Shown here: in pieces, positions 1 to 64,000 of the stretch
How positions within the stretch are numbered: the first letter of the stretch is position 1
How the letters are laid out: every line of letters starts with the position of its first letter
Notes under the pieces: generated by a model
Database searches by the model: none
Seen by the model: the letters and a program-made list of their open reading frames with translations, nothing else
What the model was told of the DNA's origin: nothing
Made by a program: the position numbers and the translations under genes
Assembly: GCA_033439255.1 (NCBI GenBank)
Contig: CM065889.1
Location: forward strand, 1,736,001-1,800,000
DNA: 64,000 nucleotides
From: Hericium rajendrae
Lineage: Eukaryota > Basidiomycota > Agaricomycetes > Russulales > Hericiaceae
Direction of reading: 5' to 3'

Positions 1-146
1 TGTCTAGGTAATGTACTGTAAGCTACTGAGAAACGAAATGAAGTTAGCAGCATCTGGGACTTAGCCTCTGATGCCGTGCGCGGCAGCTCTCGGGCCGGGC
101 CCCGACAGCCACATTTGTGGCTCCGCCGGGCAAACCCGCGCTCACC

Positions 147-154
147 TATATAAG
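147..154 (+). promoter_or_regulatory. TATA box of element i
   Basis: TATATAAG lies about 25 bases before a CT-rich leader that contains AACCCCCATCATCTCTCGTC. The same TATA plus leader order is found on the minus strand at 44780, 36040 and 63886. Conservation across copies suggests a transcribed unit; transcription itself is inferred. Confidence 0.55.
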
Positions 155-349
155 CCTCGCACGATGCGCGTCCTCTCTCTCTCTCCAACCCCCATCATCT
201 CTCGTCTGTCGTCTCTCGCTCATCGTCTAACGTCTCTCGCTCATCGTCTCTCGTGTCTTGCTCATTGTAAGTTATTTCTTGCTCGTTGTCTCGTTTCTTG
301 CTCATTGTCTGTTGTTTCTCGCTCGTCATTTTTATTTCATATTCTCTAG

Positions 350-1549: not shown

Positions 1550-1625
1550 GAGAGTATTGCTCAAATTTGAGCAATACTCTCTGCATTAGCAAACATACAA
1601 AATAAAAGGGTTTTGATTTACTTAC
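1550..1625 (-). ncRNA. intron plus covarying hairpin module, copy 1
   Basis: Read on the minus strand, the segment starts GTAAGTAAATC (5' splice-like) and passes a GCTAATGCAG branch/acceptor-like motif. It then enters a perfect palindrome whose arms are GAGAGTATTGC and its complement, with centre TCAAATTTGA. Five other copies share this order but have different stem sequences that still pair. Whether this is an RNA gene is inferred from that covariation; no coding potential is visible. Confidence 0.5.
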
Positions 1626-2379
1626 CTATGTTCCTCAACTTCCTACACATCTCTCTCCAGTGTTTGGTTCGACGATAAGAGAGAGAGGAGGAAGAGAGAA
1701 GAGGGAGGAGGAAGGGAGAGGAGTGAGAAGTGGTAAAGTCGAGATGAAGTTTGATGCATGTTTCAGTGCAGCAGCCACTAAACACACGTGCTCGAACATT
1801 TTCAAGCTTCATAAATCAAATAAAATAGAATAAATTCTGAAAAAAAGAAAAACACTCTTATATACTCATAAGATACAATTGAATACTAATTATGGTACTA
1901 CGAGCTACTCGACAGCAAGATGAAGTTAGTAAAATCTGCAACTAAGCTTCTGATGCAGTGTCTGGCAGTGTCCGAGCCAAGTCACAGCAGTCACATTTTG
2001 AGCTTCACTTGCCACATCTACACATCAGTACTCTTACAAACTTTCTGGCCATGTCTGATTGCGCCTGGGAGCAACATTCAGACACATCAGGCAATCATGC
2101 AGGGTATAGTACCACAGATACAATCAGATTTATATCTGGCCTCAGATTTTATGCCTGGCTCCAGATTTTATGCCTGGCTCCAGATTTAATGTCTGGCCTC
2201 AGATTTCATGTCTGGCCTCAGATTTAAACCTGACAGCAGCTTTAAACCTGACAGCAATTTTAAATCTGATATTATACATTGAATTTATGCTTTTCAATCA
2301 ATTAATATATCTATAGGCTAGACAAACATCATATCAACTACATAAGTAATTATCCTTATCTCAATTACAAAAAAAGCAA

Positions 2380-16158: not shown

Positions 16159-16284
16159 GGTGTGGACTCTAAAGCACTGGCAGTGCTGATTTGAGTGCAT
16201 TGTTTATTAGGCTTATGTCTTCGTCATGCATAACACGGACTCGGATAATATTATTGCCATTTGCGCTATACAGGATATACCTCA

Positions 16285-18597: not shown

Positions 18598-19225
18598 TAG
18601 GGATGGACACGAGTGCACTCGTGGGTGACCCGGATCCGAACCCGTGGGTATTCAACACAGCACGATGCCTGACCTGGATCTGCATGGGTTTCAGCCACCA
18701 GGTGATCCGGAGCTGTAGGTCAGGTACCCGTAACATCATGGGTCACTCGCAGGTCAATTATGTAGTGATCCTGCTGTTCTTCAGCACGATAGGACTCGAT
18801 GCGCCGGTGCAGTGGAAACGGCTGTAGAACAGTGCCGGCGACGAGGAGCGCACTGCAGGAGAATCGTGGCTGCTGGGCGTTGCCGAGCGCCGCACCAGAG
18901 ACTAAGTATTAGATTTTGTTATCTTAACCCTGCTACCTGAGTGATATACTGTACATTTATTACAGAACTGGCTCATGTATTCTATGTATATACATCATAT
19001 ATAGCTCCTGTCTTTCTCATGTATTTTTTGCTATTTTATTCGTTTTGTTTTGTCTCTTCGCGCATTCGGTGGCTGAAGCCCCGAGTTGACGTGTCGAGAC
19101 TTACTCCTTCTCACTCACCCTCCCTCCTTCTCCTCTCTGTTTCCTCTCTCCCTCCCATTTTTTTCGTTCTCCGTCAACTTTCAACACGGCTGTGGTGAAT
19201 TAGCAGCAGGAGAATGGGCTTAAGG

Positions 19226-19297
19226 TGAGTAAAAAAAATGAGTTTCTTATCACGTTTTCGTACTAATCAGGGGTGTTGCTCGTGTTTCGAGCGACAC
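19226..19297 (+). ncRNA. intron plus covarying hairpin module, copy 2
   Basis: GTGAGTAAAAAAAATG at 19225 is followed by TACTAATCAG at 19261-19270. The stem GTGTTGCTCG / CGAGCGACAC (19273-19297) with loop TGTTT comes next. One T-G pair replaces a canonical pair. Upstream lies a CT-rich tract as in the other copies. Confidence 0.5.
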
Positions 19298-19379
19298 TCA
19301 TTCTTTCAGCACCCCCATCCACGCATTGGAAACGCGTGTGCAATCTGTGCACGCGCACGGCCTCAACAGACCCGGCTGT

Positions 19380-20110
19380 GGCTTCAGCTGCCCACGGACA
19401 GCCCTAACAGGCCTCCGCCCCCTCCATGCCGCCTTTGCCCCCTCCGTGCCGCCTTTCCACCCTTTCTCAACACCCTCCGCGACACCTCAGCGCGATCTGT
19501 GCCACCTCAGTGCCCTCTGCACCGCCTCAGCGCCCTCCGCACCGCGTCTGTGCGCTCGGCGCCATGTCTCCGCCCTCTGCGCCACGTCTCCCCGCCCTCT
19601 GCACCATGCTAGAGTGCCCTCCGTGCTGCCTCAGCACCCTCCGTGCTGCGTCTGTGTGCTCGGCGCTGTGTCTGCGCACTCGGTGCCATGTCTCCGCCCT
19701 CTGCGCCACGTCTCCCCGCCCTCCGCACCATGCCTCAGCGCCCTCCGCACTGCCTCAGCACCCTCCACACTGCGTCTGCGTGCTTGGCGCTGTGTCTGCG
19801 CACTCGGCGCCATGTCTCCGCCCTCCGCGCCACGTCTCCTCGCCCTTCGCACCACGTCTCCTCGCCCTTCGTGCCACGTCTCCTCACCCTCCGCGCCATG
19901 TCTCCCCGCCCTCCGTGCCACGCCTCAGCACCGAACGTGCACGCCCGGCGCTGTGTCTGCGTGCTCCGCGCTCTGTCTCAGCACCCTCTGTGCCACGCCT
20001 CTGCGCCCTCTGTGCCATGTCTGTGTGCTCGGCGCCACCTTCTTCCCACCCCCCGGTGCCGTGCCACCACTCTCGGCACCACCTGCGCACTCCTCATGCT
20101 GTCCCCGCCC
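19380..20110. repeat. GC-rich CGCCCTCCGCGCCACGTCTC minisatellite
   Basis: Variants of CGCCCTCCGC-NCC-ACGTCTC and GTCTGTGTGCTCGGCGC recur throughout. The many long overlapping frames on both strands (237-287 codons) only translate this repeat into Ala/Pro/Ser/Arg-rich strings, so I do not call a gene. Confidence 0.75.
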
Positions 20111-20421
20111 TCCATCTGATTTGTTTTGGGCATATGTAGTTACCATAGGATTTGTTGTAATAGTAATGCTTGGATATAATAAATTATAATGCTACATAAT
20201 GTACATATTATAGTGATAATATAAAACTGGTAAATAAATACAATACAACAGGTAACTCGCAGGTAACTTGCGGGTCAATGCATTTCAGTAACACTTTGAC
20301 CTGGATCCGGACAGGTTTGTGCCACCGGGTGATCCGGATCTGTGGGTCAGGAACCTGTGGGTAAATTTCACAGGTATACCTGTATTGACCCGCAGGTGAC
20401 TCTGACTCGTGTCCATCCCTA

Positions 20422-20805
20422 CATGGGGGTACCTCCATTTCCTTAAGGGGCAATATCAAAGCTCATGAAGTGAGTGAGAAGTCGAAGCTCATTAAGAGAA
20501 TAGAGAGACTGAGATTTGAGAGAACGAGAAATGAATAACGTGTAGATAGGGTCATTGGGTGGGGAGAGGTGAAGGGTCATTAGGCAGATGGCAAGAGAGA
20601 CATTGTGGGAAGCAGGGTTTTTGAAGGAGGGAAAAGAGACAAAGGGAGCATGTGATGCAGGACCCCAGAGGACCCCGAACGAGTCAAGGCATGCCTTGCA
20701 ATGATACGCCTTATTGGCCCAGAGTGCCAGGATCTGGAATACAAGTAGTCAAGCAGGACTGGGCTTGGTACTGTACAGTAATGGACCTTTAAATATCTTT
20801 TTGTA
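20422..20805. repeat. inner inverted repeat of the CACTA element, left
   Basis: Part of this interval (about 20440-20550, including GAGACTGAGATTTGAG) is the inverse of about 23690-23815. So the CACTA element's inner body is itself partly palindromic. The rest is non-coding as far as I can see. Confidence 0.65.
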
Positions 20806-22201
20806 CTTAACTCTAGGGTTCGACACGAGTGCACTTGCGGGTGACCCGGATCCGAACCCACGGGTATTCAACATGGCACGAGGACTGACCTGGATCTGCG
20901 CGGGTTTTAGCCACCAGGTGATCCGGAGCCGCGGGTCAGGTACCTGTGACATCACGGGTCACTCGCGAGTCGATTGGTCTCCTTTCCTCTTACATCAGCA
21001 AAAGTGTGAAAAAATGGCAAGGGCTTACAAGGCTATGTAAGCATTTACAAAGGTCCCAATCTTCAGCTTCTGGTGAGGATTCCACCTTTCGTCGCAAGGC
21101 AATGTACATGTACCATATGGATTTGCCATGCTCCCAATCGGAGCCAATCCTTCCCCAGGCTTGTCAGCCTTGCCAAGGCTTACCCGCAGATGAGACTTGT
21201 CCATCGACATGGTACCCGTGTAATGCCACATGGTGTTCCACTGGCATTGTAAAGTCACGCAGGGTAGCTCTGTGATATCTAGCTAGTTTTACTGATTTTT
21301 TGTCATCGTCAGCAGAAATGTTGAAATAAAATCAAGTGAATTATATTCATAGTGAACGTAAATACATAACAATGACAACTAACTACGACCGATATCATTC
21401 AATACGTCGGTAACTAAGTACTTTAATACTCGTATCCATGCGCGGTGATGCGCCATGACGGTTGCTCACTCAGCTCGAGAATGAATGTCCCCGAGATTGC
21501 CATAAGCCAGCGGCGAGCCCTCGCCAGATCGCGCGCGCGCCAGAGAACGTCTTCGAGCGACGAGGACACCCCCAGAAACTGCCACTTGCGCGAGAGGGCA
21601 CAGACACTGAGATAGAGAAGAGCCTCGCCGGCGCAGATCAACGCGAGACAGCACTAGCTTCGTGCGAAAGGCGAGACACACGTCGCGAAGATCCCGATGT
21701 GCTCGAGACAAGGTCAAGAGAAAGGAGGAGTTGGATGAAGGCGGATGCGGCGGAAGGTATTTAAACAAGCACGATTTAGGGCCGGCAACGACATACCTCA
21801 AGAAAATGTAGCGCCCCGTTGCTAGGGGATGGTAGAAATATCGAGAACAGGACGGCGAGCAGGCGACCGCTGCAAAGGCGGCAGAAGGCCGTTACCTCGA
21901 TTACAAGCTATTAGATGCCAGACCAGAGATTTTGAAGACTCACCGTCAATGTGTCAGATTTCCAAGACCATGCAAGCCTTGTATGATCTTGACATGGGTA
22001 TGTATTGCGCATTGCATACCCTTGTAAGAGATTACATTGCGGCGCAATCCCGGTGACGCGTGACAGTTCTGACCGGGGAATAACCGACTAAAACGTTTTT
22101 GCTGATGTACTACTCACCACACCGTGCTATCCTCGTCTTTTCACCATTTCTTCTCAGTTCCATGGCAGGGAGGGGTTTTGTAGGGGCTGGAAGGGCCGAA
22201 G

Positions 22202-22277
22202 GTGCGTCTCAATATGTTCAATTTCACTGTCTCGTACTAATCTTGAGTGTCTCGCTTGGATAACGAGCGAGACACTC
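22202..22277 (+). ncRNA. intron plus covarying hairpin module, copy 3
   Basis: GTGCGTCTC is followed by CGTACTAATCTTGAG and the stem GAGTGTCTCGCT / AGCGAGACACTC (22245-22277), loop about TGGATAACG. Upstream GGAGGGGTTTTGTAGGGGCT resembles the same position in copy 4. Confidence 0.5.
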
Positions 22278-22712
22278 ATTCAATGTGATTATTCTTCGAT
22301 AGGTCATGTCTCGCGCGCCATCTGCGCTCATCCTCATCCCTCACGCGTTCGAAAATCCCCCCCAGCGCCCATCGCAAGACCCTCATCGACCGCCTGCATC
22401 CCAGCCACTACCCGTCTTGCGCTCCCGCGCAAGGATTCTTCTTTTCACCCATATCCCAAGAGTACGCATGGCGCCGACATCGCGCGTGGAAAGCCAATGA
22501 ATAAATCATCGAGCCTCGTTGCTGTAGCAACGAACCTTGACTACCGTTCATTGAAGACCCGCGGGCGACATGGTTGACTTTAACACTGTGCGCATGGGCC
22601 CTAGCCGAGCGGGCATGAATTCGAATGTTTTCAAGCATTCACAACATCCCATCTTCGTCATGTCCTCAACTCAATGGCAGGAAGGGATTTGTAGGGATTT
22701 GAGGGGCTCAAG

Positions 22713-22787
22713 GTGAGTCCAAAAGAGCTTTATATCCATTGCACTATACTAATCTTGGAATCTCGTTCGTTATCGAGCGAGATTTCC
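22713..22787 (+). ncRNA. intron plus covarying hairpin module, copy 4
   Basis: GTGAGTCCAAAAG, then TATACTAATCTTGG, then GGAATCTCGTTCG / CGAGCGAGATTTCC (22757-22787), loop TTAT. The stem has one bulged base and one T-G pair. It may be a partial tandem duplication of copy 3 within the same hAT-type element. Confidence 0.45.
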
Positions 22788-23663
22788 TTTCCCATGGGCC
22801 ATACGCGCAGGCGTCAACATTGCGCTCGCACTAGCATCCCTCCCACCTCCCACACGCCCCTGACATGCCCTCGCATACCCGGGATAGAGCACGTCTATCG
22901 CTCACGCCCCGACATCGTAAGCACGGACAGCGCATGACGTACGACGCCGCACGCCGTCCAGCCTTGCATTCGTCTGATGATGCGGGCCGTCGCGCATGTC
23001 CACGAGGACAGGCACACATGTTGGGCTGCTGTGGCGCAGCGCGTCGGACACGCGGTTCGAGATTCGCCGGGAACGAGACTTACGCGGCGGAGGACTTGAG
23101 AGGGTCATCAGCACGGGGAGCACGTTGTGCGCGATGCTCAACATGCCGAAGGTGATCCTCGCTTGGTCCGGGGTTTGGTACAAGATTCAGGAAGGATGCA
23201 TCGGCGTCCGGGTCCTACACTTCCAGCTTGAGCTCGTGCAGTGTGGGCAACGCAGGCAGAACATGCCTGAGGATAGAGCCGAGCGCATCGGGGCGCACGA
23301 AGAACACGAGGTGGCTGATGCATGGCATTCTACAACAGGCTCATGATGTTGCTCGCAATGTAGTCGTGCTCACTGCTAGCTAGTGAATATGCTATGTAGA
23401 TCAAGAAATTTATGTATATACACTGTAGACCAATGAGATACCTTCAATAAACGAAACACTAGACATCAGGTTAGTATTATTGCAGGTTACTCGTGGGTCA
23501 CTCGCGGGTCAATGCATTTTAGTAAGATCTTGACCTGGATCTGGACGGGTTTCAGCCACCAGGTGATCCGGATCTGCGGGTCAGAGACCTGCGGGTAAAT
23601 TTTGCAGGTTTACCTGGATTGACCTGTGGGTGACTCTGACTCGTGTCGAACCCTACTTAACTC

Positions 23664-23925
23664 ATTGCTCTGGCAAAGAGCGATGGGACATCTATCTACA
23701 TGCTATTCATTTCTCGTTTCCTCAAATCTCAGTCTCTCTATTCTCTTAACAAGCTTCAACTTCTCACTCGCTTTGCAAGCTTTGATATCATCCCTTAAGA
23801 AAATGGACGTATGCTCATGGTCACAAACAGATACAAGCTGTGTGATGTGTCCTACTCCATCTATGCCTCTGACCTTCAGCTTTGGTGATGGAACTCAAAG
23901 GAGGCTCTCAAGTTTCCATGCCGCT
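23664..23925. repeat. inner inverted repeat of the CACTA element, right
   Basis: Inverse of part of 20422-20805, plus about 120 bp (23816-23925) with no counterpart on the left side, where hAT-type element 1 now sits. Confidence 0.6.
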
Positions 23926-24712
23926 CACTGCAATGCAGGACTGTACAAAGCTGCACTGCAGAACTGCAAAAAGCAGCACTGCAGGACTGCACAAAGCCAC
24001 AGTGCAGAACTGTGCAAAGCTGCACTGCAGAACTGCACAAAGCAGCACTGCAGGACTGTGCAAAGCTGCAATGTGGAACTGCACAAAGCTGCAATGCAGA
24101 ACTGCACAAAGCCACAGTGCAGAACTGTGCAAAGCTACAGTGCAGGACTGCACAAAGCTATAGTGTAGGACTGTGCAAAGCAGCACTGCAGGACTGCACA
24201 AAGCCAAAGACAGCACTGTGAGACTGCACAAAGTAGCATTGTGGGACTGTGCAAAGCTATAATGTAGGACTGCGCAAAGCTGCAGTGCAGGACTGCACAA
24301 AGCTGCACTGCAGGACTGCAAGATTGTGCAAAGTGACAGTGTACGACTGTGCAAAGCTGCATTGCAAGGCTGTGCAACGCTGCAGTGCAGGACTGTGAGA
24401 CTGTGCAAAGTTCCAGTGCAGGACTGTGCAAAGCTGCAGTGCAGGACTGCACAAAGCTGCACTGCAGGACTGCAAAAAGCAGCAATGCAGAACTATGCAA
24501 AGCAACATTACGGGACTGTGCAAAGCTGCACTGCAGGACTGCACAAAGCCAAAAGCAGCACTGCAAGACTGCACAAAGTGGCACTGTGGGACTGTGCAAA
24601 GTGGCAGCTATAATGCAGGACTATGCAAAGCTGCACTGCAGAACTGCAAAAAGTAGCAATGCAGGACTGCACAAAGCTGCACTGCAGGACTGTGCAAAGC
24701 TGCAAGATACAC
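23926..24712. repeat. 23-bp subterminal array, right inner block
   Basis: About 34 units of the 23-bp repeat in inverse orientation to the left array (GCACTGCAGGACTGCACAAA). Long frames here are repeat artefacts. Confidence 0.9.
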
Positions 24713-24929
24713 CCAACCCTTAGAGCCAATCCTTATCCTGAAGTTATGGATCTATTTTGCCGACTTCCCTTATCTACATTGTTCTATCAACTAGAGGCTG
24801 TTCACCTTGGAGACCTGCTGCAGTTATGAGTATGACCAGGTGTGAAAATTATTCATTCCCTTGGATTTTCAAGGACTGTCAAGAATGCACCAGACCTGAC
24901 AGAGGTGTCGAGCTCTACCCACCATTGAA
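24713..24929. other. unique spacer splitting the right array
   Basis: About 217 bp of non-repetitive sequence interrupts the 23-bp array and has no partner in the left array. I recognise nothing in it; it may be a captured fragment. Confidence 0.5.
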
Positions 24930-25869
24930 TCTATGCAAAGCTGCACTGCAGGACTGTGAGACTGTGCAAAGTGACAGTACAGAACTGCACAAAGCAGCAG
25001 TGCAGGACTGCACAAAGCTGCAGTGCAGAACTGCAAGATTGTGCAAAGCTGCAGTGCAGGACTGTAGGACCACACAAAGTGACAGTGCAGGACTGCGCAA
25101 AGCTACACTGCAAGACTGCACAAAGCTGCACTGCAGGACTGCTAGACTGTGCAAAGCTGCACTGCAGGACTATGCAAAGCAGCACTGCAGGACTACGCAA
25201 AGCAGCACTGCAGGACTACACAAAGCAGCACTGCAGGACTACGCAAAGCTGCACTGTAGGATTGCACAAAGCCACAGTGTAGAACTGTGCAAAGCAATAC
25301 TACAGGACTGCGCAAAGCCACAGTGTAGAACTGCACAAAGCTGCAGTGTAGGACTGTACAAAGCTGTACTGCAGGACTGTGAGACTGTGCAAAGTGACAG
25401 TGTAGGACTGCACAAAGCAGCAGTGCAGGACTGCACAAAGCTGCAGTGCAGGACTACACAAAGCTACACTGCAAGACTGTACAAAGCTGTACTGCAGGAC
25501 TGCAGGACTATGCAAAGTGGCAGTGCAGAACTGCACAAAGTGGCAGTATGGGACTGTACAAAGTGGCAGTGTAGGACTGCACAAAGCTGCAGTGCAGGAT
25601 TACACAAAGTGGTAGTGCAGGACTGCAAGACTGTGCAAAGCAGCAGTGCAGGACTGCAAGACTGCGCAAAGCTGCAGTGCAGGACTGCGAGACTGTGCAA
25701 AGTGGCAGTGCAGGACTGTGCAAAGCTGCAGTGCAGGACTGCGCAAAGTGGCAGTGCAGGACTACACAAAGTAGTAGTGCAGGACTGCACAAAGCTGCAC
25801 TACAGGACTGTACAAAGTGGCACAGCAGCACTGCACAAAGCAGCACTATAAGACTGTACAATTTAACAT
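24930..25869. repeat. 23-bp subterminal array, right outer block
   Basis: About 41 further units of the 23-bp repeat that run into the right inverted arm. Confidence 0.9.
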
Positions 25870-26916
25870 TGCAGGACTGTATGATGCAGTATTGTAAGAT
25901 AATAATTATGTATTATTGCACATTGAATTACTGTACAACTGTAGCACTGTATGATACAGCATTTTTGCACTACATAATATAGCACTGCCATAGTGTATCT
26001 TGTAGCACTGCAATATAATATAGCATTGTAAAATATAATGTAATCAAATTATATAGTTTAGCACTACAGAATTGCAGAACGTAATACTGTAAAGTTGCAA
26101 ATAATAGAGTCTAAACAGTAAATGAGATTTAATGTACTTTCAATTTTAGTTTATAATAATGTTTTACTTTTAAATCTCAATATTCTTCTGTTAATCTTTC
26201 AATTTATTTTTAATAATACTTAGAATGTCTTTTTATTTCTTCTTTATATAGTTTTTATTTGTTTTTAATAACATCATAATATGTTTTCAATTTCATGCTG
26301 ATACTTTGTCTTAGAAATTTGTATAAAATTCAAAATTTTATCTTCGTAACTGGTCACCAGTATTAAAATGATGTTTCAACTTTGATTTTAATATTGTCTT
26401 ATTTATACTATAATATCTTCAACATTCTTCTTATAGCTTGTTTAAAAGAATTTTTCAAGATTTTTGTTATACTTGATATTCAGATATTGAGAAAACATTG
26501 AAAAGGTATGAATATGATAGCTGAAGATTATTTTAAATTTTCATGTCTAGTTATATGATATGTATCAAAATGATATATGTAATATTGTTAATCATAATCT
26601 AGCCCTAGTATTAGTATAGCATTGTATTTGTTATTAAGAAAAAAATGATGTTGAAGTTGTAAAGCAATTGTAAAAAATATTTAAAAAAGCTCTTTCATAG
26701 GCCAGTGCAATATATTGAGCTCAATATTGTGTTGATATTGTGATACTATGAGAATCAAAGTCAAACTTTTCATTTCATAGTTAAGCTCTAACTATTGAAA
26801 AGAAGTTTCTGTTGTTTTTTTGATATTGTGGTGCCAGTTATCAAAAGAAATGTAATACTTTGTATTTGATAATTTCTCAGTATCTCGTCATCAGTTATTA
26901 GCATTTGCACCCAGTG
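25870..26916. repeat. right terminal inverted arm of the CACTA element
   Basis: Inverse of 16285-17340, ending TGCACCCAGTG followed by the TCA duplication. Confidence 0.9.
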
Positions 26917-26921
26917 TCAGG

Positions 26922-27083
26922 GTGCCCGCAGTACCGGGGCACCTCGCTGGTGACCCCCGCGTAGGCAGAGAAGCGTAACCGGTCGAGGATGCGGTCCGTT
27001 GCCAGGACTGGCGACGGATCGGGACGCATCCACACCTGTGTTGGTCCTCCCGCCTGCCTCCGCGCCTCGGCACGGCGGCGCAT
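26922..27083 (-). CDS. conserved divergent peptide fragment beside Crypton A
   Basis: On the minus strand the frame contains PDPSPVLATDRILDRLRFSA followed by YAGVTSEVPRYCGHP. The plus strand of Crypton copy B, at about 60985-61090, encodes a close match (PPPVLATEHILNQLHFSAYA). Conservation between copies suggests a real coding segment divergent to the recombinase gene, but in A it is cut short by the CACTA insertion. I do not recognise the family. Start and exon limits are unknown. Confidence 0.4.
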
Positions 27084-28100
27084 CGCAAACCGGATCGGCC
27101 AAGCGATCGGCCAAGCAATCGGCCAAGCAATCGGCTAAGCGTCGCCTGGCGCCACCTGTCGTGTCGCGTCGCTGGGCGCTCTCTCCTCTTCCACGACGAC
27201 ACGACCGACGACGCCCTTGACGACGCACGCCCTTTCGACGGACTCGGTCGCTGCTGGCTGCCGCCGCCGCCGTTTGTTTCTGACTGCCGTTCTGCCATTT
27301 TCCCCTCGACCGCATTCCCCCGTTCTCCAAATATTGTGCGCGCTCGCGCGCGCGCCTTCGCGCCCTCGGTCCACTCTCGCAACTCGGTCCACACTCTGCA
27401 CTGTGCGTTGTTCTCGCGTAGAGCATTCCTCGCATAGCGCCCGATCGACAGACTGCCCCGATCCACGCCTGCCGCTGCCAATCCGCTGCCAATCCCCTCC
27501 CGTCACATTCCACCATTCCACCATTCACGACCGTCGGCCGCAAATTTCGCCGTACTTCACGCCCCTCGCTCTGATCGCTCGCTCCCATGTCGATTCGCGC
27601 CCGTTGCGCCGGTCTGTCTAGCCTAGCCTCGATTTCTCCCTCGATTTCTCGATTTCATTTCATTCATTTCATTCTCACGCCCATTGCGCCCGAACAGGAC
27701 TCGATTGAGCCACGAAGAGCTGCATCGGGGGGCTCGTGATCGCGATCGCCCGTCGCCCGTCAACGAATACCGCTTCAGTGCTCATCGTACCCTCTCTCTG
27801 ACAGGTTGTTCGGCTTCGCGGTTGGCTCCGTTGCCAACCGCGCCTTTTTACTTTTTCTGTCTCTCCACTAGTGTACGATCCAAGTAATCAGCGAGCTTAA
27901 TACTACCTTACTCCCCGCCTATAATTTGCTAATTCGCCTCTCTTATTTGCCTCTCTCGCTGTCACGTAGGCACGCGCCCTCTCTCTGGCAGCCAGCCATA
28001 TTTATTTATCTATCTAACTTATCAATTGGCAGGGCCCATTCCCCTCTCCTTGCCGCGAGCCCCCCACGCAGCCCCTGCCCGCCCGTTGCATTGCACCCCA
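27084..28100. other. 5' region of Crypton copy A
   Basis: GC-rich and CpG-rich. It includes a short tandem of GGCCAAGCAATC (about 27095-27140), a purine/pyrimidine-biased tract, and a stem-loop at 27817-27842. Long frames on both strands are arginine/serine-rich composition effects. It probably carries the recombinase promoter and 5' UTR. Confidence 0.45.
27817..27842 (+). promoter_or_regulatory. conserved stem-loop upstream of the Crypton gene
   Basis: CGCGGTTGGC and GCCAACCGCG form a 10-bp stem with loop TCCGTT, followed by a T-rich run. Copy B has a matching stem-loop in the equivalent place (60345-60370, TGCAGTTGGC/GCCAACTGCA). The paired differences are at CpG sites, so CpG decay alone could explain them. 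Confidence 0.5.
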
Positions 28101-31100
28101 ATGGCGGCCAACCCGTTCCAGCCCATCCAGTTCGTTTTCTGCGACCCGTCTCCGGACGCGCTGCTGCGCATGCATGCGGTCTCAGCTGCTGTCACCCCCC
28201 GCGGGCCTGCCTTTTGCCCATCGCCTGCCAGTGGTTCCGACATACCGCCGGATTCGGACACATGCATGGGGAGCAATGCGCGCGCGTTCCCCATGCCGCG
28301 CTGCGCCTCCGTCGAGCTTCCTGAGCTCCTTGCGCTGTGTCCCACTGTTCCCGCGCCTCATCCGTCTATGTCCATTCCCATGCCGCATCCGTCTGTTCTC
28401 CCGGACGTGCTCGACGGATCGCAGCTCGCGCCGGTCGCGATCGCGCGCTCGTGCTCGGTTCCACAGCAGCCGCAGCTGCCGTCCTCGCTGCTGCAGTGCA
28501 AGAGCGGCAGTGGCACTCCTGCCGTGCCGCCCCTTCCTCCTGCCGTGCCCTGTGTGGTACAGACCGGTACCGGCACGGTGGCCGACAGTGCGGCGTTCGA
28601 GCGCCTCGAGATGGAGTCGCACGACCTCCGTCTCGAGCTCAGCGCACGCCTCCACGCTGACACGACGACGGGCACGAAGTACCAAGCGATCTACAACAAC
28701 TACGTCAAGTGGTGGGCTGCCAACGCGCCTGACCTCCTCGCGAAGCACGAAATCGAGGCCGTGATCCCGGCACTGCCGATCACGGCCATGAAGGTCTCCT
28801 TCTTCCTTCAACATGAGACCACGCGCGAGAAGGTAAGCATGCTGCCATTGTGGATGCTGCCCGTCTTTGTATGCTGATGCCACCACCTTTTTTTTTTCCT
28901 TGTCGCAGCGCAAGCATGGCAGCAACGAGACGATCGCCGGCTCGTCGCTTGGCGCGTCCCACATCTCCGGCGTGGTCAACGCCTTGGAGAAATACCGCAA
29001 GAACTTCGCTCACCTGTACAAGGACGATCCCGAGGCTCAGAAGAAGTTGCGCGACGATGCCCGCATCTCGGAGCTCGAGCGCTCCGTCCGCCACAACGAG
29101 CCCCGTCGCAACGAGACCGCAAATGCCCTCAAGGCGAGCGGCACCTCCTCCGGTGAGTCCTCTCCCCCTCCCCTCCGCGTCGCTCGTTTCAGGGGCGGCA
29201 GCAGCGCCAGAGCGGACACTGAGGCCCGTGCATTTTTGCAGATGCCTACACACCGCAGGAGCTCCAGAAATGCTCCCTCTGGTGCCTGTCCACGTCGAGA
29301 ACAGCCGACCAAGTCTTCCTCCACCTCCGCGACCGCGTGATGCTGCTCGTGTCGGCGGGCACGGCGTTCCGTGGCGACAGTACCCGCAACCTCGAGTGGT
29401 CGGACCTGTTCGTCACGCATGCTCCGGTGCCCGACATCTCGCCAGGCTATCGACTGCAGGCAAGTCTGCCCACTGCTGTGCTGTGTGTCTGCTTGTTGCT
29501 GACTGTCGGGCTCCCATCTAGGTGCTCGGCATCCTCTCCGACAACGCCAAGCACAACCAACAAGGCCGTGTTGACGAGCACGGCCTCATCCGCCACCGCC
29601 TCGTCGAGCTTTGCCCTGTCGGGGCAATGGCCTGGCTCTTCTGGGCCCACTTCCATGTCCTGTCGAAGCCCGTGCCCGATTTCGCACCGGACTTCAATGA
29701 CAAGGAGTTCGGTGAGTTCGGGCGCCGCGACTGGTACTCGTACCACCTGTTCTATGCGAAGGACATCAGCAAGGCCATGACCTACGACAGTGAGCACCTC
29801 AGTCACCTCCTGCTGTGTGCGAAAGGAATGGAGCTGACCGGTGCCTTGTGCCTTTGGCCGCTAGACCACTACAATCGCATGAAACACATGCACCTCGAGA
29901 ACGAGGTCTCGATCTCGAAGGTCACGCATGCCTCTCGTCACTACGGCGCACAGAACACCCGCAGTTATGGGGCCTCGATTGCAAGCACGAAGGCAATGGG
30001 CGGCTGAAGTGAGTCTGGCTCATTTCGCAGCTGCTACGACCATGCCATGCCGCTGGACGCGCTCCTTGCGTCGGCGATGTTCAACGGCCAGCAGCCATCA
30101 TCATACTTTCTTGCGCGCGACGTGCTCGGTGAGTGCCGCTTCCCTCCCATCTCATGCGGAGGCCGCTTGCTGAAGCCGAGGCATCACGACAGAGCCCCGG
30201 ATGACCTCCTCTGCCTGGTCTTCCCGTGGGTGGAGCACGAGCAGCGGGCACTTGCTGTTCATGCGCAGCAGACCCGCGTTGCGATCGACATCGCCCTCGA
30301 GAGCTTCCTGAAGGTCATGCTCTGGTTCCGCCGTGTGCTCCTGCAAGACGCCGCCATCCTTTACTGTCGCAACTCGAGCTACCCGATCTTCAATCTGCTG
30401 CCATTCAACTTGCAATCCTTCCGCACGTTCGCAGAGGGAGCGAGTGAGCGGATCGCCGCTGCCGAACGCGAAGCTCAGGCGGCCTTCCAGAACCTGCCGC
30501 AGGCCATAGTACAGACAATGCAGGGCATCACGACTGACTGGGCACTGCAGCTGCAGCAGGAGCGCATAGAGAGCCGCGCGCATCACAATGACCTGACCGA
30601 GTGCATGCACCAGTTCATGGCCGAGGTGCAGATGCAGAACGGGGCGCGTTCGTCTCGCAAACGACGCCAGGGTAGGTTTACTTAATTATATCTTGATCCT
30701 TGTGGGCCCCTGCTGATCCCAGCTGTGTTTTCGTGCAGTCCCCGATGCCACCATCTCGACGACCATGGCTGCCGCTTCCACCTCGACGGCAGCTATCGTG
30801 CCTGGCGCCTCCACCTCCGCTTCTGCCCCGATGCACGCCGAGCAGCCCGCTCTCCCAGCTGCTGCATTCCCTGCACACCCACCTGCGACGGCATTCGGCA
30901 TTATGCCACCGCCGCCGTCTGTCGCACCTGCGCAGTCAGCACCATGGCTGCCGTCGAACCTGTTCCCGTCCACAACACCTGATGCACGCTGGAAGAAGCG
31001 GGAGGAGCTGCGACAGCGCTACGGCGACAGGCCCGTCGCGCAGCACCCGTGGCAGCTCGTGTCTGGCATCTACGTGCTCTCGTACGTCATGCAGACGGCC

Positions 31101-31418
31101 GCCACCATCGACGACATCTGGACGGAGTACACGGTGGGCCTCAACGGCTACCTGCCGGTGCGCGAACTCGAGGAGCAATTCGGACCGAAGTGGAGGGGAA
31201 ATGTCTCGGGCGTCAAGACCGAGTGGGGGCGGCACAAGAAAGCGATCGCGCTGATCCAGAAGCTGTCCAGCAAGCCGCGATGGGATGTGGATCTCACGCT
31301 CCGCTTTCTGCGCACGGAGTACGCTATGTACGGCTCGCGCAAGTTCTGCGAGTACTTGCAGAGCACGAAGCTGAACGCGGAGGCAGAGATCCTCGAGCGG
31401 GCACGGTCATTTACATAG
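28101..31418 (+). CDS. CryptonF-type tyrosine recombinase, copy A
   Basis: Recombinase that would cut and join the element as a circle. Seven exons fit: 28101-28832, 28909-29152, 29242-29459, 29522-29789, 29865-30128, 30162-30671, 30739-31418 (972 codons in frame). After a proline-rich N-terminus comes an N-terminal SAM-like region. The catalytic domain has FRGDSTRNLEWSDLF (Arg, about 370), KVTHASR (His-x2-Arg, about 510) and CYDHAM (candidate Tyr, about 545), the Ndc10/Crypton pattern. The last 150 residues (DARWKKREELRQRYGD to LNAEAEILE) match the GCR1_C DNA-binding type. The third intron has a GC donor (29460) where copy B has GT. A TGA at 30005-30007 replaces a tryptophan (copy B has DWSESGSF), so this copy is probably inactive or very recently lost. 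The start is supported by the same MAANPFQPIQFVFC in copy B. Confidence 0.85.
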
Positions 31419-31711
31419 CGGTGTTTTTTTTTATTTCGTTTTACTTGTTGACTTTGTAGCATAAATTATCGAGTATATTTGATTACTGTACAAGTCGAAC
31501 TAGCTGTAGCACATATGATCAATCCTAAATGTTTTGTTCCCATTCGAGAACCCGAGGGCTCTGTGCAGGCCCAATAAAAGCCCCGCCGTGTGTCGCACGA
31601 CGGATGCAAATCCGAGGTATCCACCCGGGTTTTGGCAAGGATGAAAGCACACGGATTCGAAAACAAATACTTCATTGCATGTGCTCATCGTTGATATCGC
31701 ACCCAGGCCAC

Positions 31712-33560: not shown

Positions 33561-35231
33561 ATGTGAGAGGGCATAGATTAGCAGAGCATCAGGAAAAACC
33601 GGAGTTTTACTAAATCAGATGATGTGCCTATAGAAGCATTGATGTGCCTATAGAAGCACTGATGTAGATATAGAAGCACTGATGGTAGCTACCGGTGTTT
33701 TCCGGCTGATCCTGTAGCTCTTCTATTACATACTGTATGACTGCATTCAGGTCCCATAGCTTGTCTTGTCCTACCGTAGTCTCCTGTAGTTTTCTGTAGT
33801 GACACTGTCTTTTTAATCCATTATATTGCTCAAAAGTCTTTCAAAAGTGATGTGAGGCTTGTATTTCATCATATGATCTGCCAGTTTTGATTACTAATGT
33901 GCTATCACCACTAGTGACATGTTACGCACACATATGTGCCTCTAAGCAAGTCCTGCTCATACTGTGTGTCTGCATTTTTTGCGGTTCCAAGGCAAGCAGG
34001 AAATAACTCAGAACAAATGTGAGTGTATTAAAATACTCTTGACTAACACTTTTCAACAAGTCTAGGATAACACCCTTGCATAGACGACTTCAAGTTTCAA
34101 AAGGTATGTGTGGCTGACGCTTTGATACCATAGATTTTGATGTTGTGCACCAAGCACTGCACCGATTTGCATGTATGTACATGCGTTCGAAAGCTACTGA
34201 TTGCTGCTTTCTGAAACACCAGAAATGTTGCCGGTGCGTTTACTCGTTGTAAAGATATCCTCAAAACATGTTCTTGCTGACAGTTTCAGAGATTCTGTTG
34301 TAGTGCCTCGAGTTTTTCACCCATCAGGGTGCACAATAACTCGATCGAAAGCTCTTGATGAGCTCCTTTTAACGAGATAAAGATTTTTGTGGTATGTCCA
34401 ATATTCATCATGATATATCCAATTTTCGCTCAAAGGGACGATTTTTAAATCTTCTTGGATCAGGTTGTGTAGGGCACCGTTCGAAAGCTACGCTCAACCG
34501 CATTCAGGAATGTCTGAAACGTCAGCGGTGCGTGTTCTCGTTGTGAAGATATGCCAAAACTGCTGTTTGACCCCCATTTTCAGAGATTTTGCCGCTGGTG
34601 CACGAGTTCTGCACCTAACGTAGCGTATGAGGGCTTGCTTGGAAGCTACGAATAAGAACATTCAGATGAGCCAAAAAGATATGTGGTGCGTGCAATATTA
34701 ATAAAGTTATATCACTTTTTGTATCTACTAAATGTCACTTATAGCATTCTGGCCATAGCGCCTTTAATATCCAACAGATCATGGCATACAAGGCATCGTT
34801 CGAAAGCAACGATTCGTCCGGCTCGGTCAATACTAGGTACGTGTTAATCAGATGAAAACTGATGTTTGTAGCAGAGAAATGCAGAACTCTCCAGGGGACC
34901 CGGATACTCTCCCACGCTCCTTGCAGCTAAGGCGCACAACAGGGCAGAACACAGATGGCCATATCTGGCAATCTGATTTCTGCCAGCATTGGACAAGTGT
35001 AAGTCAGTGTAGAGTTCATATCTATAAACACTGAAGGAAATTTTGTAAGTAATATAACTTGCAATGTTTTCATTTTTCGTGCAGGAGCCAGAAACCAGAT
35101 TGCCAAATATGGCAATCTGGTTTCTGCCTTTGGTGTTATTTGGCCTCAGGATTTGCCAGCAGCGCGTCGTCTTTGCCACTCTTTCTAAGTCTCTTCTCTC
35201 TCACTCTCTCACTCTCTCACTTCTCTCTCTC
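33561..35231. other. intergenic/repeat region without recognised genes
   Basis: At 33619-33683 a 20-21 bp unit (GATGTGCCTATAGAAGCAC) is repeated three times. From 34150 to 34830 the words GTTCGAAAGCTAC and close variants recur every 100-150 bp, recalling the repeat at 3420-4110. At 34950-35126 are inverted GGCAATCTG words, and 35190-35231 is a CTCTCT microsatellite. No coding segment is convincing. Confidence 0.5.
35089..35126. repeat. perfect 17-bp palindrome
   Basis: CAGAAACCAGATTGCCA and its exact complement are separated by AATA. A related half (GGCAATCTGATTTCTGCC) lies at about 34966-34984. This could be a foldback end of a small element whose full limits I cannot see. Confidence 0.7.
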
Positions 35232-36039
35232 CATCAGGGAAATGATCAGATCCTATATAGCTCTATAAGTCCTACATAGATTTCCTAGGGCCATAGCAAC
35301 GTCAAGTTCTACATAGCTCATATAGCTGTAGTGAGATGCTATGTAGTGCTATGTAGCTTGGCTGGGTTGCTATGTAGCTCTATGATAGCTATGATAGCTT
35401 CCTAGTCAGCTATGATATCTATTATAGCAGACTTAGCTATACAATGTATGGAAGGTATCTTACTAATATAAGTTATGCTCAGTAGATACATTTATAAATT
35501 CTATCATAGCTACATTTTTAAAATTCATTATATAGCTTTAGTAGACTTTATAAAAGTCTACAATATTATATCCACTTTTATCACATGAAAATCAGACATC
35601 AACCAATATAAGATCACATCAAAAAGATTATATTCAAATCTAATACAGCTATTTGTAATCTACTACACAACTAAACTAAGTGTATATATATCTAGCAAGA
35701 TAACAATTAATCATAATATCACAAGGTTATATATATATATAAGCAAGAAAACTTACTAGCATGAGAAAAAAGCGAAAATCTAGAAGTATAAATTGTCAAC
35801 AAAGATAATATGAGAAGTCTACAAGTCTACAGTAAGTACTCACCAATATGATCAAAAAGCGAAAATCTAGCAACCTAGCAAGAGAAGACAAATCAGTATA
35901 AGAATATAGACCAATAATAAAAGAAAGCTTACCATAGGTAGTGGAGTCAAGAGCGAAAGGTAAAGTTAAGAGAGAAGAGCTCGAAGACGGAGGAGATGGT
36001 GGTGGTAAGAGAGAGAGAGACGACGCGCGTCGCGCGAGC

Positions 36040-36047
36040 CTTATATA
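36040..36047 (-). promoter_or_regulatory. TATA box of element iii
   Basis: TATATAAG on the minus strand follows a GCGCGAGCC-type motif on the plus strand and precedes the leader containing CCACCACCATCTCC. It equals the motif at 147 and those at 44780 and 63886. Confidence 0.55.
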
Positions 36048-36438
36048 AGATTGCCAGCGGAGCCACAATTATCTCCGGGCCGGACACTGCCGGACGCGGC
36101 AACAGAGGCTAGGCGGACAGACTTCATTATATTGTCTGTGTTGCCCGGTAGTTCACAGTACAGTAGCTAGAAGTATTGCTCATACAATATATTCTTCTGA
36201 TTATTCCACAGCTGTCGCTTTTTTCCCGTATATTATGCGATTTTATTTGATTTGTTGTGCCTTGTAGATGTGAACTTCGCGCGTTGAGCAGCGAAGTCGC
36301 GTCGTTTGTCTTCGTACTCTCGACTCTCTCCTTGCCCACTCCCTCTCCTCTGGTCTCTCCTCCCTCTTCTCGTCTTCTGCCGTCTCTCGTCAACTTGAAG
36401 GGTTCCAGTGTCGGGGGCTCGAGGGTCCAGGGGTACAG

Positions 36439-36515
36439 GTGAGTAATAAAAAACTATATTTCGTGTGTAATGTACTAATATCGAGAGTGCCACTCGTCGA
36501 CGAGTGGCACTCTCG
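36439..36515 (+). ncRNA. intron plus covarying hairpin module, copy 5
   Basis: GTGAGTAATAAAAAAC, then TGTACTAATATCGAG, then a perfect 15-bp stem CGAGAGTGCCACTCG and its complement with loop TCGA (36482-36515). The stem differs from copies 2, 3, 4 and 6 at several positions, each changed on both arms. Confidence 0.55.
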
Positions 36516-36539
36516 TTTTCTCGTTTGTTTTCCACCCCC

Positions 36540-37720
36540 AACGTGCACCCTCTCCCTTCCAACACTCCGCCGCCCCGCTCTCGCGCACCCTCCGCGCCCA
36601 TTCGCTTGCATTACCCGCGCCGCCGACCAACTACCGCCTCTGACGCATCGCGCTTGCCCCTGCGCACGGCCCCCGACTGTCCGCGCGCAGGGCCAGCATG
36701 ACTGCGCCAGCGCACGCACGCACGCCCGGGCCCGGTCAACATCACCCAGCTGCGCGTGCAGGCCTGCATGCGTGGATGGCTGCGCACGTCTACGCCAGCG
36801 CACGGACCCACCAACGCGCGCGTCTGCATACGGCCCCGCCTCCGCAGCACTGGCACACGGCCCTGCGCGCTCGCGCCAGCGCGCCCACCGGTACACGCCC
36901 CAGGCCATCTGCGCACGGGCGTGCCAGCACACGGCGCCGCGTTGACCCGTTGCCGTGGCAACTGGCACCAACGCGCGGAATGGCTGCCAGCGGCTCAGCT
37001 GCCCATGCCCGCACCTCGCCCACCCCGCGTCCACTCGTGCGTAGAACGCCCCGCACCTGTTCAACGCCCCTCCGCGTTCCCTACCACGGTGCGCCTGTGC
37101 ACGATGAGCACCGGCTCGTCGACGACCACGCGCGCACGACACCCGCAGCCCGGATACGACCTCCGCAGCCCGGACACGACGCGTGCCAGCCATGAACGAT
37201 GCCGGCAGCCCGCGAACGACGCCAGCAGCCCGCGAACGACGCCAGCAGCCCGCGAACGACGCCAGCAGCCCGCGAACGACGCCTGCAGTCCGTGCACGGC
37301 AGCAACAGCCCGTGAACGACGTGCGCAGCCCCGCGAACGATGTGCGCAGCCCCGCAAACGACGTGCGCAGTCCGCAAACGACACCCGCAGCCCAAGAATG
37401 ACGCCGGCAGCCCAAGAACGACGCCTGCAGCCCGGCCACGATATCCGCAGCCCGCGTACCGCACCTGCAGCCCGCGCGCGACTCCTCCAGCCCGAAACGA
37501 CGTTCGCGCACGACGCTTGCAGCCCGGACACCTGCGCATGGCCCCAGTGCCTCGCGCGCAGTCCTCGTACCTCGCGCACGACCTGCGCGCTTCGCGTACG
37601 ATCCCAGTGCCCCGCGCAACAGCCGTAACGACCCCGCACCTCACACACGACGTCCCGCGTGCCTACGACAGCATGCTTGGTGCCATGTCAGTGGTGTACC
37701 CCATGCCTGTTCCCTGTAGC
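36540..37720. repeat. GC-rich low-complexity body of element iii
   Basis: Alanine/arginine/proline-rich frames stay open on both strands (up to about 400 codons on minus), but they consist of short recurring words. At 37195-37285 a 20-bp unit CAGCCCGCGAACGACGCCAG repeats about four times. I see no conserved domain and do not call a gene. Equivalent GC-rich bodies follow the hairpin at 19380-20110 and 45260-46450. Confidence 0.6.
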
Positions 37721-43867: not shown

Positions 43868-44779
43868 CTCATCTGAGAAATTTACTACTGGTATATAACA
43901 CTATGTAGGCTATATAGCTTTCCTAGGTCCATAGCTGTCCTCTTTTCTACATAGCAGTCTCATAGCAGTTAAGTAATCTATGCATAGCTATCATAGCTTA
44001 CCATAGCTACCATAGCATAGAGTATAAGCTATCATAGCTACCATAGTTGTCATAGCATAGGGTATAAGATATCATAGCTGTTATAGCCATTGTAGTATAT
44101 GGTAGCTATAAAAGCTATATCAACTATATATTATATCTAGCTGATAAGATTTATATCTGTTCTATATCAATTCTCTCAGATATATTGTTTTAACATATAA
44201 CAGCAAAATATTATAGGTCCAATGATCTTATGTTTTTTGACTGATAAACATTGAAAATTTAAAAACATGATATATTTCATACATTTTTATTACAAGACAT
44301 TACTCTACTACAAAGATTGTTAGATAACTACAATAGATAACAAACTTACACTAACTACAAAAAGCGAAAATATAAACAATGAAAAACATTAATATTAGAA
44401 GATAATAAAGGTATAACATATAAAAGCTTACCACAAAGTAACAAGAGGCAAAAAGCTACAAGACAACTTGAAGATATCAGTGTTAAACTGTAATACTACT
44501 TATCTAGTAAGCATACAAAAGTACTGTAATAAGTATGAGAGCATTAGCATCAAAACGAGAGACTAAGAATAAAAATATACCTAAATAGAAATAGCAATGA
44601 TGAAAAAGAGATAGCAATGACGAAAGAGATAGCGACGACAGAGAAGAGGCAGCGACGACGGAGAAGAGGCAGTGACAAGAGAAAGAGAGACAACGACGAC
44701 GACGAGAGAGAAACAAGGATGATGTGGCACGAGAGATGGTGGGGGTTAAAGAGCAAGAGGTAACGTGCATTGCGCGAGT

Positions 44780-44787
44780 CTTATATA
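44780..44787 (-). promoter_or_regulatory. TATA box of element iv
   Basis: Minus-strand TATATAAG followed by a leader with AACCCCCACCATCTCTCG and a long CT-rich tract to about 44590, then a GTATAT donor-like motif. Nearly the same arrangement as in elements i, iii and v. Confidence 0.55.
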
Positions 44788-45185
44788 CAATTCACGGGCG
44801 AAGCTGAGAATTGTGGCTCCAAGCGAAGCTGAGCGCCGCGTCAGAGGCTAAGTGGCAGATGTGATAACTTTGACTCTGCCGTCCGGTCTTGTGTGCTGCA
44901 TTATGTAGATAATCGGCCCATTCAATCCATGTAGATTACTATTCTATAATACAGTATTTTGTTTTGTAATTATTGGCATTTTATTCGATTTGTGACGTCG
45001 TGAGAAACTTTGACTCGCTCGTTCGGTGGCTGAAGCACCGAAGTCGCATCGAGACTTCTCACTTGCTCAGTCTTCACCTCCTCCCTCACTCTGTCCGTCC
45101 CTCTCCGGCTCGCCTCGCTTCACTCCTCCTTTCATCAACAGTCAAGATGGATCAGGTGGGGATTTTGTAAGCTGGAGGGCTGCAG

Positions 45186-45258
45186 GTAAGTAAAAAAAGT
45201 CATTCTTTTGTGTTCATTCATACTAACGCAGAGTGTCGCTCGTCTTTGAGCGACACTC
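45186..45258 (+). ncRNA. intron plus covarying hairpin module, copy 6
   Basis: GTAAGTAAAAAAAGTC, then CATACTAACGCAG, then GAGTGTCGCTC / GAGCGACACTC (45231-45258) with loop GTCTTT. TACTAAC-N-CAG is an ideal branch and acceptor string, though unusually close together. Confidence 0.55.
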
Positions 45259-45259
45259 G

Positions 45260-46450
45260 TCCTTTCGACACCCCCACGTCTCCCGTCTCCTCTCTCACGT
45301 CCCCGTTCCCCCCTCGCCTTCAACTGCCTCCCCCCGTGCTCTCAATGATGCCACTGCCGCCCTCTGCTGCTCGCGTGCGCAATACCAACACCCTGCGTGC
45401 AACCACCACGTCACCCGCACCGCGGACGGCCACGGACGATGCAGGCACAGCCACAGACGATGCGTGGACGTCGTTCCGCACTGTCTGTGTTCTGTCAACG
45501 ATGTGCGCAGACTCGCCACGTCACTGCCCACTGCGTGACATAGAGTCCCGTTGCCATGGCAACAAGACTCGGGTGTCCACCCTTCGCTGTCACCACACCC
45601 TCAAGCCACGCCTCAAGCCCCCCGCCGTGTCACCAGTGTGTCGAACGATCGCAGCGTCCAAGAGCCACATCCCGCGTGCTCACCGCACTTGTGGAAACCC
45701 CCACTTGTCCCGGGACACGCGCACGCAACAACCCAGACATGCGCACGATGCCTGCGTGCTCGCAATGTCCCATGTTCAACATTCAGGTGCACCGTACCCC
45801 GATGCATCGCATGTGGGCTCTGCACATCACGCCCCCGCCCGCCCCTCTGTCCCACATGTGGCCACTGTGCCTCGCGTGCAGGCTTGCCGTGTTGTGCACA
45901 GACCCGCAGCAATGCAAGACCCCCCCCCCTGCACGCCTCGTGCTTTTGGCACGCAGACCTATTGCGTCGTGCATGGCCTCTGCACCCCGTTCGGCCTGCT
46001 GCACCTCGAGCATGTGGACCGATGCCTTGCACATCTGCCACACCTCACGCATCCCTCCCAACGCATCGTGCACGAGCCCAGCGCCCGGCGCCACCTTCCT
46101 CACGCCGCCCGCGCCTCAAGCACATCCGCTGCGCCCCGCGCCTGCCTCCCGTGTGCCCTGTGCCTTGCCCACAACCCCGTACCTCGCATGCGCACCCACG
46201 GCAGTCTAGCGCCCCATGCATGGGCTCTCGCACCTTGCATGTGCCCCATCGACTCGCGTACGGCCTTATGGCCCCGTGTGAACCCATGGTAGCCCAGCGT
46301 CTCGTGCATGGGCTCCCTGCCTTGCACTTCCTGTGCACAGAGAATTGCTGCATTGTGCATACCAACCACGTCCTCGTGCGCGTGCGTGCCTTGTCACTTC
46401 CCACGAGCATGCGTGCTGGCCCCGCCTGTACATGCTGTGTCCTAATGTAG
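45260..46450. repeat. GC-rich low-complexity body of element iv
   Basis: Follows the hairpin as in the other copies. Long open frames on both strands (up to 360 codons) are rich in Pro/Ala/Cys/His/Arg with no recognisable domain; words such as CCCCGTGTGAACCCATGG and GCATGTGG recur. No gene called. Confidence 0.55.
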
Positions 46451-50976: not shown

Positions 50977-51644
50977 CGCAGCCTTCAGTTGGTGGTCCTG
51001 GGTTTCTTCGAAGGGGGTTGTGAGAGTCCTGTGCCAGTGTCTGAAGCATAAGGTTTGTTTCATGTTTTTGAACGGGTCTCCATGAGTCCTGACAAATGAC
51101 TTGCAGGATAGTAAAAGGCCAGGTGGAGGTGGGCAGACTAGTAGCAACTCGGAAGACAAAGTCGTACAGTGCGACGAGACTGACAGCCGAGTCACGCTGT
51201 CGCACGCGGCACCAAGTCTGCGCCCAGCCGAGTCGACTGCTTACTACTCCCGAGTCTGCACTTGACCAACGGCAGCCTGTTTGCTTACTGCGTAATCTCG
51301 GAACTTTGATATAAATCTATCTAGTGTTGTTTGAAGCCGAGCCATTCCCAGTGGACTGTGAGACTGCAGACACTTGCTCTTTGCTTGACGGCCAGATTCT
51401 CTTGTGCTCAACTCAAAAGTTGAAGCCTCTTGTGCTAGAAATTGTATGGTCTTGTGCTCAACTCAAAAGTTGGAGCCTCTTGTGCTCGAAATCATATTGT
51501 GTTGTACTTGACTCGAAAGTCAAGAGTCTCTTGTGCTTGAAGTTGGAATCTCTTGTGCTTTTGGAGTATCTTGTGCACTTCTCTGTGCTCAACAAATAGT
51601 AAAGCTCTTGTGGACATTATTGAATTCTGGATATATCTAGTATC
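50977..51644. promoter_or_regulatory. divergent promoter region of the Plavaka genes
   Basis: Between the two start codons. From 51370 to 51600 the words TCTTGTGCTCAACTCAAAAG and TTGGAGCCTCTTGTGCTCGA alternate about four times as a loose tandem repeat just before the transposase start. These could be regulatory or transposase-binding sites. Confidence 0.5.
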
Positions 51645-63871: not shown

Positions 63872-63885
63872 TGCGTCGCGCGAGC

Positions 63886-63893
63886 CTTATATA
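63886..63893 (-). promoter_or_regulatory. TATA box of element v
   Basis: Minus-strand TATATAAG next to CGCGCGAGCC, same setting as at 36040 and 44780. The nested hAT-type MITE separates it from its leader. Confidence 0.5.
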
Positions 63894-64000
63894 CGAATCC
63901 CGAGCAGAGCCGGGATTCGTGGCTGCTGGGTGCTTGTCGAGCGTCACGTCAGAGACTGGGGCCAGACCTCACTAAATGGCCTTGGCTTCCTGTGAGCTTC

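Follow-up and report, generated by a model that had tools for sequence, protein, structure and literature searches.

An Intron-Like Module with a Covarying, Branch-Adjacent Hairpin, Repeated Six Times in a Most Likely Basidiomycete DNA Window

Within a single 64,000-nt stretch of DNA (hereafter the window), the same module occurs six times: a splice donor, a spacer, a consensus branch site and, adjoining it, a hairpin whose two arms have changed together. We read it as a spliceosomal intron module. It would lie close to the 5′-end of a basidiomycete unit, multicopy and apparently non-coding, and its stem would gate acceptor choice or the second step of splicing; we hold this reading with about even confidence. 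It is drawn from several strands of evidence: six modules against 0.09 expected, covariation, a bias toward G.U wobbles on the donor strand, a spacing of 39-42 nt between donor and branch point, and pairing of the hairpin in its sequence context. Taken together, these suggest that the hairpin controls the splicing of its own intron.

All six copies come from this one window, which is eukaryotic and most likely basidiomycete since it contains a Plavaka transposase (51624-54931), Crypton-like copies, and two further genes, one encoding a myosin head and one with Sel1 repeats. Plavaka elements and such Cryptons are typical of mushrooms. The Crypton-like DNA is present as two inverted, diverged copies (26921-31535 and 56271-61096); frames of the first contain NDC10_II, and the single frame of the second that was scanned contains GCR1_C. 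The two copies carry matching hairpins (27817-27842 and 60345-60370) that differ by paired changes, in a sample of two copies only.

Anatomy of the module and its departure from chance

Copy C (36439..36515, + strand) starts with a GTGAGT donor at 36439, followed by TACTAAT at 36473-36479, a 15-bp hairpin at 36482-36515 and a first AG beyond it at 36689-36690. Copy D (45186..45258, +) has a GTAAGT donor, TACTAAC at 45221-45227, a 12-bp hairpin at 45231-45258 and its first AG beyond at 45443-45444. Copy F (19225..19299, +) combines a GTGAGT donor, a branch site at 19261-19267 and a 12-bp hairpin at 19271-19299 with an acceptor-like TTTCAG ending at 19309. Copies G and H are near-tandem relatives 511 nt apart: G (22202..22278, +) has a GTGCGT donor, a branch site at 22235-22241, a 15-bp hairpin at 22244-22278 and a first AG at 22301-22302, while H (22713..22786, +) has a GTGAGT donor, a branch site at 22747-22753, a 13-bp hairpin at 22757-22786 and a first AG at 22809-22810. 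Finally, copy A (1550..1625) lies on the minus strand, with a GTAAGT donor at 1625, TGCTAAT at 1591-1585, a 14-bp hairpin at 1581-1550 and a first AG at 1416-1415. Copies F, G and H sit within a 10.6-kb segment (16280-26921) that has inverted repeats at its two ends. These repeats are 97% identical over 1.2 kb and 87% over the roughly 2 kb that align in total, and they contain 23-bp tandem arrays.

The first-pass annotation had claimed this shared order for six sites, and the order of donor, spacer, branch site and hairpin does hold at all six, although the copy at 1550 proved to be on the minus strand and the donor G placed at 19226 is really at 19225. The spacer, first described as 35-45 bases, translates into donor-to-branch-A distances of 42 nt in F, 39 in G, 40 in H, 40 in C, 41 in D and 40 in A; a myosin intron in this window, its reading frame checked, has 42 nt. 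The branch site matches TRCTAAY throughout, with TACTAAT in four copies, TACTAAC in D (45186) and TGCTAAT in A (1550), as the annotation's TACTAAY or GCTAAT had it. The hairpin, said to follow at once with 10-15 bp, has a stem of 12-15 bp that begins 2-3 nt past the branch-site heptamer in every copy. The GT-R-AGT donor fits five copies but not the one at 22202 (GTGCGT), and the CT-rich tract, clear in four copies (0.73-0.79 pyrimidine), is weak in those at 22202 (0.59) and 22713 (0.54). The final 45 nt upstream of the donor are purine-rich (0.60-0.73).

A composite scan for donor, branch site and hairpin at a score of at least 20 returned six modules from the real window, whereas 500 local dinucleotide shuffles together yielded 43, or 0.09 per shuffled window with a maximum of two in any one. 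This rules out a chance origin of the modules; an earlier scan with 20 shuffles had given none at that score. When a covariance model of the hairpin, built from the six copies, was run over both strands, it recovered all six in sense orientation at E < 1e-9 and no further site at E < 0.13 except those six in reverse reading. A module-wide nucleotide profile with the same training set gives the six and nothing else at E < 0.28 except three of these palindromic hairpins in reverse reading, and therefore no decayed seventh copy is visible in the window.

Covariation of the stem and the level of selection

The claim that both arms of the stem change together is borne out by an alignment of the six copies over 14 pairs (alignment A5). 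Two-sided changes affect nine of the 14 pairs and 80 of 84 cells are paired, values each reached in 0 of 500 shuffles, as is the covariation score; of the five measures used, only the count of additional pair types does less well (reached in 23/500). These shuffle counts are not probabilities, because the module sequences are related. The four unpaired cells all fall within the two outermost pairs, and structures slid along the alignment pair just 32-51% of cells. RNAalifold gives the six hairpins a consensus energy of -25.81 kcal/mol with a favourable covariation term, and in a 300-nt context each hairpin is predicted to pair (mean probability of ten pairs 0.83-1.00, 6/6). The loops have no evident common sequence among the copies. 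The annotation had seen here a selected structure and not a copied sequence. The first half stands, in that the paired changes pass the main controls; the second does not, as the stems look like descendants of one GAGTGTCGCTCG-like sequence, so that here a selected structure is at the same time a copied sequence.

Does selection act on an RNA or on the DNA itself? Since CpG decay in palindromes can mimic compensation, the two-sided changes were sorted by CpG type. Among the 11 double-changed cells, seven cannot be explained by a CpG transition, three can and one can in part; two of these seven, the G-C to C-G changes of copies G and H, are probably one event. A DNA-level palindrome devoid of any RNA role (a cruciform, a binding site or the outcome of template-switch correction) could acquire paired changes by template switching or CpG decay, and the three changes that fit such decay, with the one that fits in part, lean that way, while the other seven do not. 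A mechanism acting on DNA should moreover be symmetric between strands, and the non-Watson-Crick paired cells are not: read on the donor strand they comprise six G.U and no A.C, which by symmetry has a chance of 1 in 64 one-sided or 1 in 32 two-sided (a binomial calculated by hand, on small numbers). This wobble bias favours RNA over DNA, making the palindrome reading very improbable. The hairpin is also more stable in sense than in antisense in four of six copies, and equally stable in two. What can be read from the letters thus favours selection on an RNA that bears the splice signals.

The RNA-level signal concerns the stem alone, which leaves room for a stem unrelated to splicing, that is, a protein-binding or stability element placed by chance after a branch-like motif. 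This seems distinctly unlikely: in six of six copies the stem starts 2-3 nt past a branch site whose A lies 39-42 nt downstream of a donor, and loops lacking an evident common sequence argue against a protein that reads them.

The repeated unit around the module

The module forms the end of a block of about 500 nt common to four of the six copies (F, C, D, A), which are alike over about 320 nt through the module and share a further block upstream. This promoter-like upstream block occurs six times in the window. In copy C (36021..36262, +) it includes GCGCGAGCCTTATATA and the leader (nhmmer E 1e-65, in the training set), and it is found before D at 44760..44998 (+), before F at 18841..19060 (+) and before A at 1804..2009 (-), all three in the training set. 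The two others are block E (63872..63999, +, in the training set) and block B (3..172, -), which was recovered from outside the training set at E 1.4e-23; their modules, if any, would lie beyond the right and left window edges, respectively. Four of these blocks (B, C, D, E) carry TATATA; A and F do not, and no TATA part of the block was found there. A left-hand AT-rich block is strong in five places and weaker in two more (38047-37843 and 55962-55730). Copies G and H are without the upstream block. Upstream of copy C, a 22-bp hairpin (35084-35131) lies directly 3′ of an acceptor-like TTTTTCGTGCAG.

Downstream of three copies come GC-rich tracts: 36520..37690 (+) after C, with a GC content of 0.71 and 20-bp tandem arrays; 45260..46450 (+) after D, at 0.64; and 19300..20110 (+) after F, at 0.69 with 20-22-bp arrays. 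Their longest ATG frames measure 286, 315 and 237 aa in C, D and F, lengths reached in fractions of 0.010, 0.007 and 0.067 of shuffles. GC content is nearly flat across codon positions (0.71, 0.72, 0.72 in C; 0.67, 0.61, 0.67 in D), against 0.62, 0.46, 0.44 in the Sel1 gene and 0.51, 0.44, 0.44 in the myosin gene of the window, and the best frames of the C, D and F tracts have no significant mutual similarity. From their composition and frames, the tracts are apparently non-coding. For the module itself, the lack of coding capacity asserted in the annotation is likely. Elsewhere, on the minus strand at 2370-3272, there are repeated units which, judged by eye, resemble very short exons (about 20 nt) flanked by TTTTTGTAG and GTAAG/ATAAG.

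Neither a common right-hand end nor an insertion site of the whole unit was found in the window by eye and BLAST, and its transposition is therefore unproven. Such a family is undescribed in the titles and abstract openings of the literature searched, which is no proof of absence, and exact-pattern scans of viral contigs returned 2 and 4 stretches that seem on visual inspection to be unrelated coding DNA.

Several known kinds of element were considered and rejected. A Helitron 3′-end has a hairpin closely followed by CTRR, a motif that occurs within 25 nt of the hairpin in none of the six copies. Spliced-leader RNA genes have a near-identical short exon before the donor; here the mean pairwise identity of that exon among the six copies is just 0.41. 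SINEs transcribed by Pol III have A and B boxes, and none is seen in the four leaders examined (C, D, F, A). The telomere repeat being taken as of the TTAGGG type, none of three short telomerase-template patterns occurs in C, D, G or H, F having two 6-mers and A one, and CTAACCC is absent from all six units; with the patterns missing from four of the six, there is no telomere template common to the family. A tRNA was ruled out by an ARAGORN run with the bacterial code. On reasoning only, the stem is too short for a Dicer-type precursor and the loops differ too much for an RNase III tetraloop substrate. At Rfam 15 gathering scores, the sole match in the window is to LSU rRNA, away from the modules, and around copies C and D there is no match at E up to 1. 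The LSU rRNA match (24566-24785, -) overlaps a 23-bp tandem array ending at 24704 and is probably spurious.

Acceptor position, splicing outcome and known systems

In five of six copies the AG closest to the branch A lies at the foot of the stem and ends 4-7 nt past that A; H has none there. In the myosin intron, its branch A taken from a CTAAT motif, an AG ending 7 nt past the branch A is skipped and one at 11 is used. Beyond the hairpin, the first AG is a YAG in 6/6 copies (P = 0.055), at 8 nt in F, 22 in G, 22 in H, 173 in C, 184 in D and 133 in A, and no acceptor motif is seen to be conserved between the six. The lateness of AG is significant in C and D only, and in the pooled copies (Fisher P 0.0003 to 0.0015 across runs). 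It partly reflects a general poverty in purines, because other dinucleotides come late as well (GC 0.0005, GG 0.01, GA and TG 0.03).

Were the stem to gate the second step, events might run as follows. The unit would be transcribed and its pre-mRNA would branch normally; the stem would then bury the AGs lying 4-7 nt past the branch A, leaving only an AG beyond the hairpin able to serve. In F, G and H, where such an AG is near, the hairpin would be looped out and splicing completed, and in A, C and D, with the next AG 133-184 nt past the hairpin, the second step would be slow or rare. Yeast offers a precedent, as 88 introns were measured there and 21 are reported to have downstream stems, some of which conceal cryptic acceptors, in the portion of the work considered (PMC12350175). 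The same portion has yeast models asking for at least 42 nt between donor and branch point (PMC12350175), so by analogy the 39-41 nt of five of our six copies may be a point against the gating reading or a difference between fungi. A stem only 2-3 nt from the branch site might also hinder the spliceosome itself, which would count against gating, as does the unusually distant next AG of three of the six copies. If the stem does act through the branch site, the module copies would amount to a natural experiment, repeated with several variants within one genome, on how near the branch point a structure can sit and on its effect on the second step.

The distant AGs open another path, in which splicing stops after branching. 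The product would then be a leader RNA, namely the 5′ exon set free at that point, and its 3′-end would arise in the manner of fission-yeast telomerase RNA. This remains a candidate because A, C and D have the next AG so far past the hairpin, coupled with a good branch site, and so would fit the S. pombe TER1 recipe, where first-step release is put down, in the part of the paper considered, to two features, a perfect branch site and an acceptor far from it (PMC4299874). The stretch 36060-36515 of copy C also folds better than its shuffles (z -4.27, 0/100), though it includes the module hairpin, which alone contributes -29 kcal/mol. Three copies speak against it by having a YAG 8-22 nt past the hairpin (F, G, H), as does the poorly conserved exon on the donor side (identity 0.41). 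The leader hairpins seen in single-leader folds dissolve into a weak consensus across the six leaders (RNAalifold, -4.55 kcal/mol, covariation term slightly unfavourable); no conserved leader structure is therefore claimed, and its lack weighs against the leader as product. Other fission yeasts, too, are described in the same portion as achieving first-step release by other means (PMC4299874). On balance we consider release after the first step unlikely. We are equally doubtful of a multicopy non-coding RNA family in which a dedicated spliceosome stop signal, made up of a good donor, a perfect branch site and a covarying branch-adjacent stem blocking the second step, would make 3′-ends or an entry into RNA interference. 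If true, that would extend first-step-only splicing from telomerase RNA to a gene or transposon family, and any halt after the first step would tie spliceosome stalling to repeats and to non-coding RNA.

In Basidiomycota, RNA interference is reported to be set off by stalled spliceosomes, e.g., on transposon transcripts through SCANR in Cryptococcus, as far as the part of the source considered goes (PMC5851062). With this precedent, the module could be one that stalls the spliceosome, the stalled intron of the repeat feeding small RNAs, and the units are indeed repeated, apparently non-coding and placed beside transposons. The CpG observed/expected ratio divides the copies on this point. The body of copy A is poor in CpG (0.36; leader 0.52). 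In this it resembles Plavaka (0.31) and the second Crypton-like copy (0.29), and methylated repeats would be expected to look this way; C, D, F and G/H, by contrast, keep their CpG (0.90-1.28), unlike silenced repeats, with the Sel1 and myosin genes at 0.87 and 1.03. This route offers no reason for a repeat to conserve such a trigger, and we regard it as quite improbable. As to the Crypton-like pair, one member is CpG-intact (1.06) and the other depleted (0.29), which makes it a natural pair for the study of methylation-type decay.

How, then, does the module compare with systems already described? With S. pombe TER1 (PMC4299874) it has in common a strong donor and branch site, an apparently non-coding 5′ part and, in three of six copies, a far acceptor; here the unit is multicopy, and the word "hairpin" occurs 0 times in the main text of the TER1 paper. 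The SCANR substrates of Cryptococcus (Dumesic 2013, as reviewed in PMC5851062) likewise belong to a basidiomycete and are repeated, with introns that may be slow, whereas the covarying stem found here is not mentioned for them in the part of that review considered. Introners (PMC9860276), as presented in the text considered, also place similar introns in several locations, but here the similarity continues well beyond the intron on its upstream side, and none of the copies was seen to interrupt a recognised gene. The favoured reading, a stem that gates the second step, brings the module closest to the downstream stems of yeast RPS23B, RPL40B and RPS14A (PMC12350175), with which, on the portion of that work considered, it shares a stem of more than 6 bp past the branch point and nearby AGs hidden by it. 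Here the stem begins 2-3 nt past the branch site in every copy, which may set the module apart, and it differs in belonging to a multicopy, apparently non-coding unit, half of whose copies are without a near acceptor.
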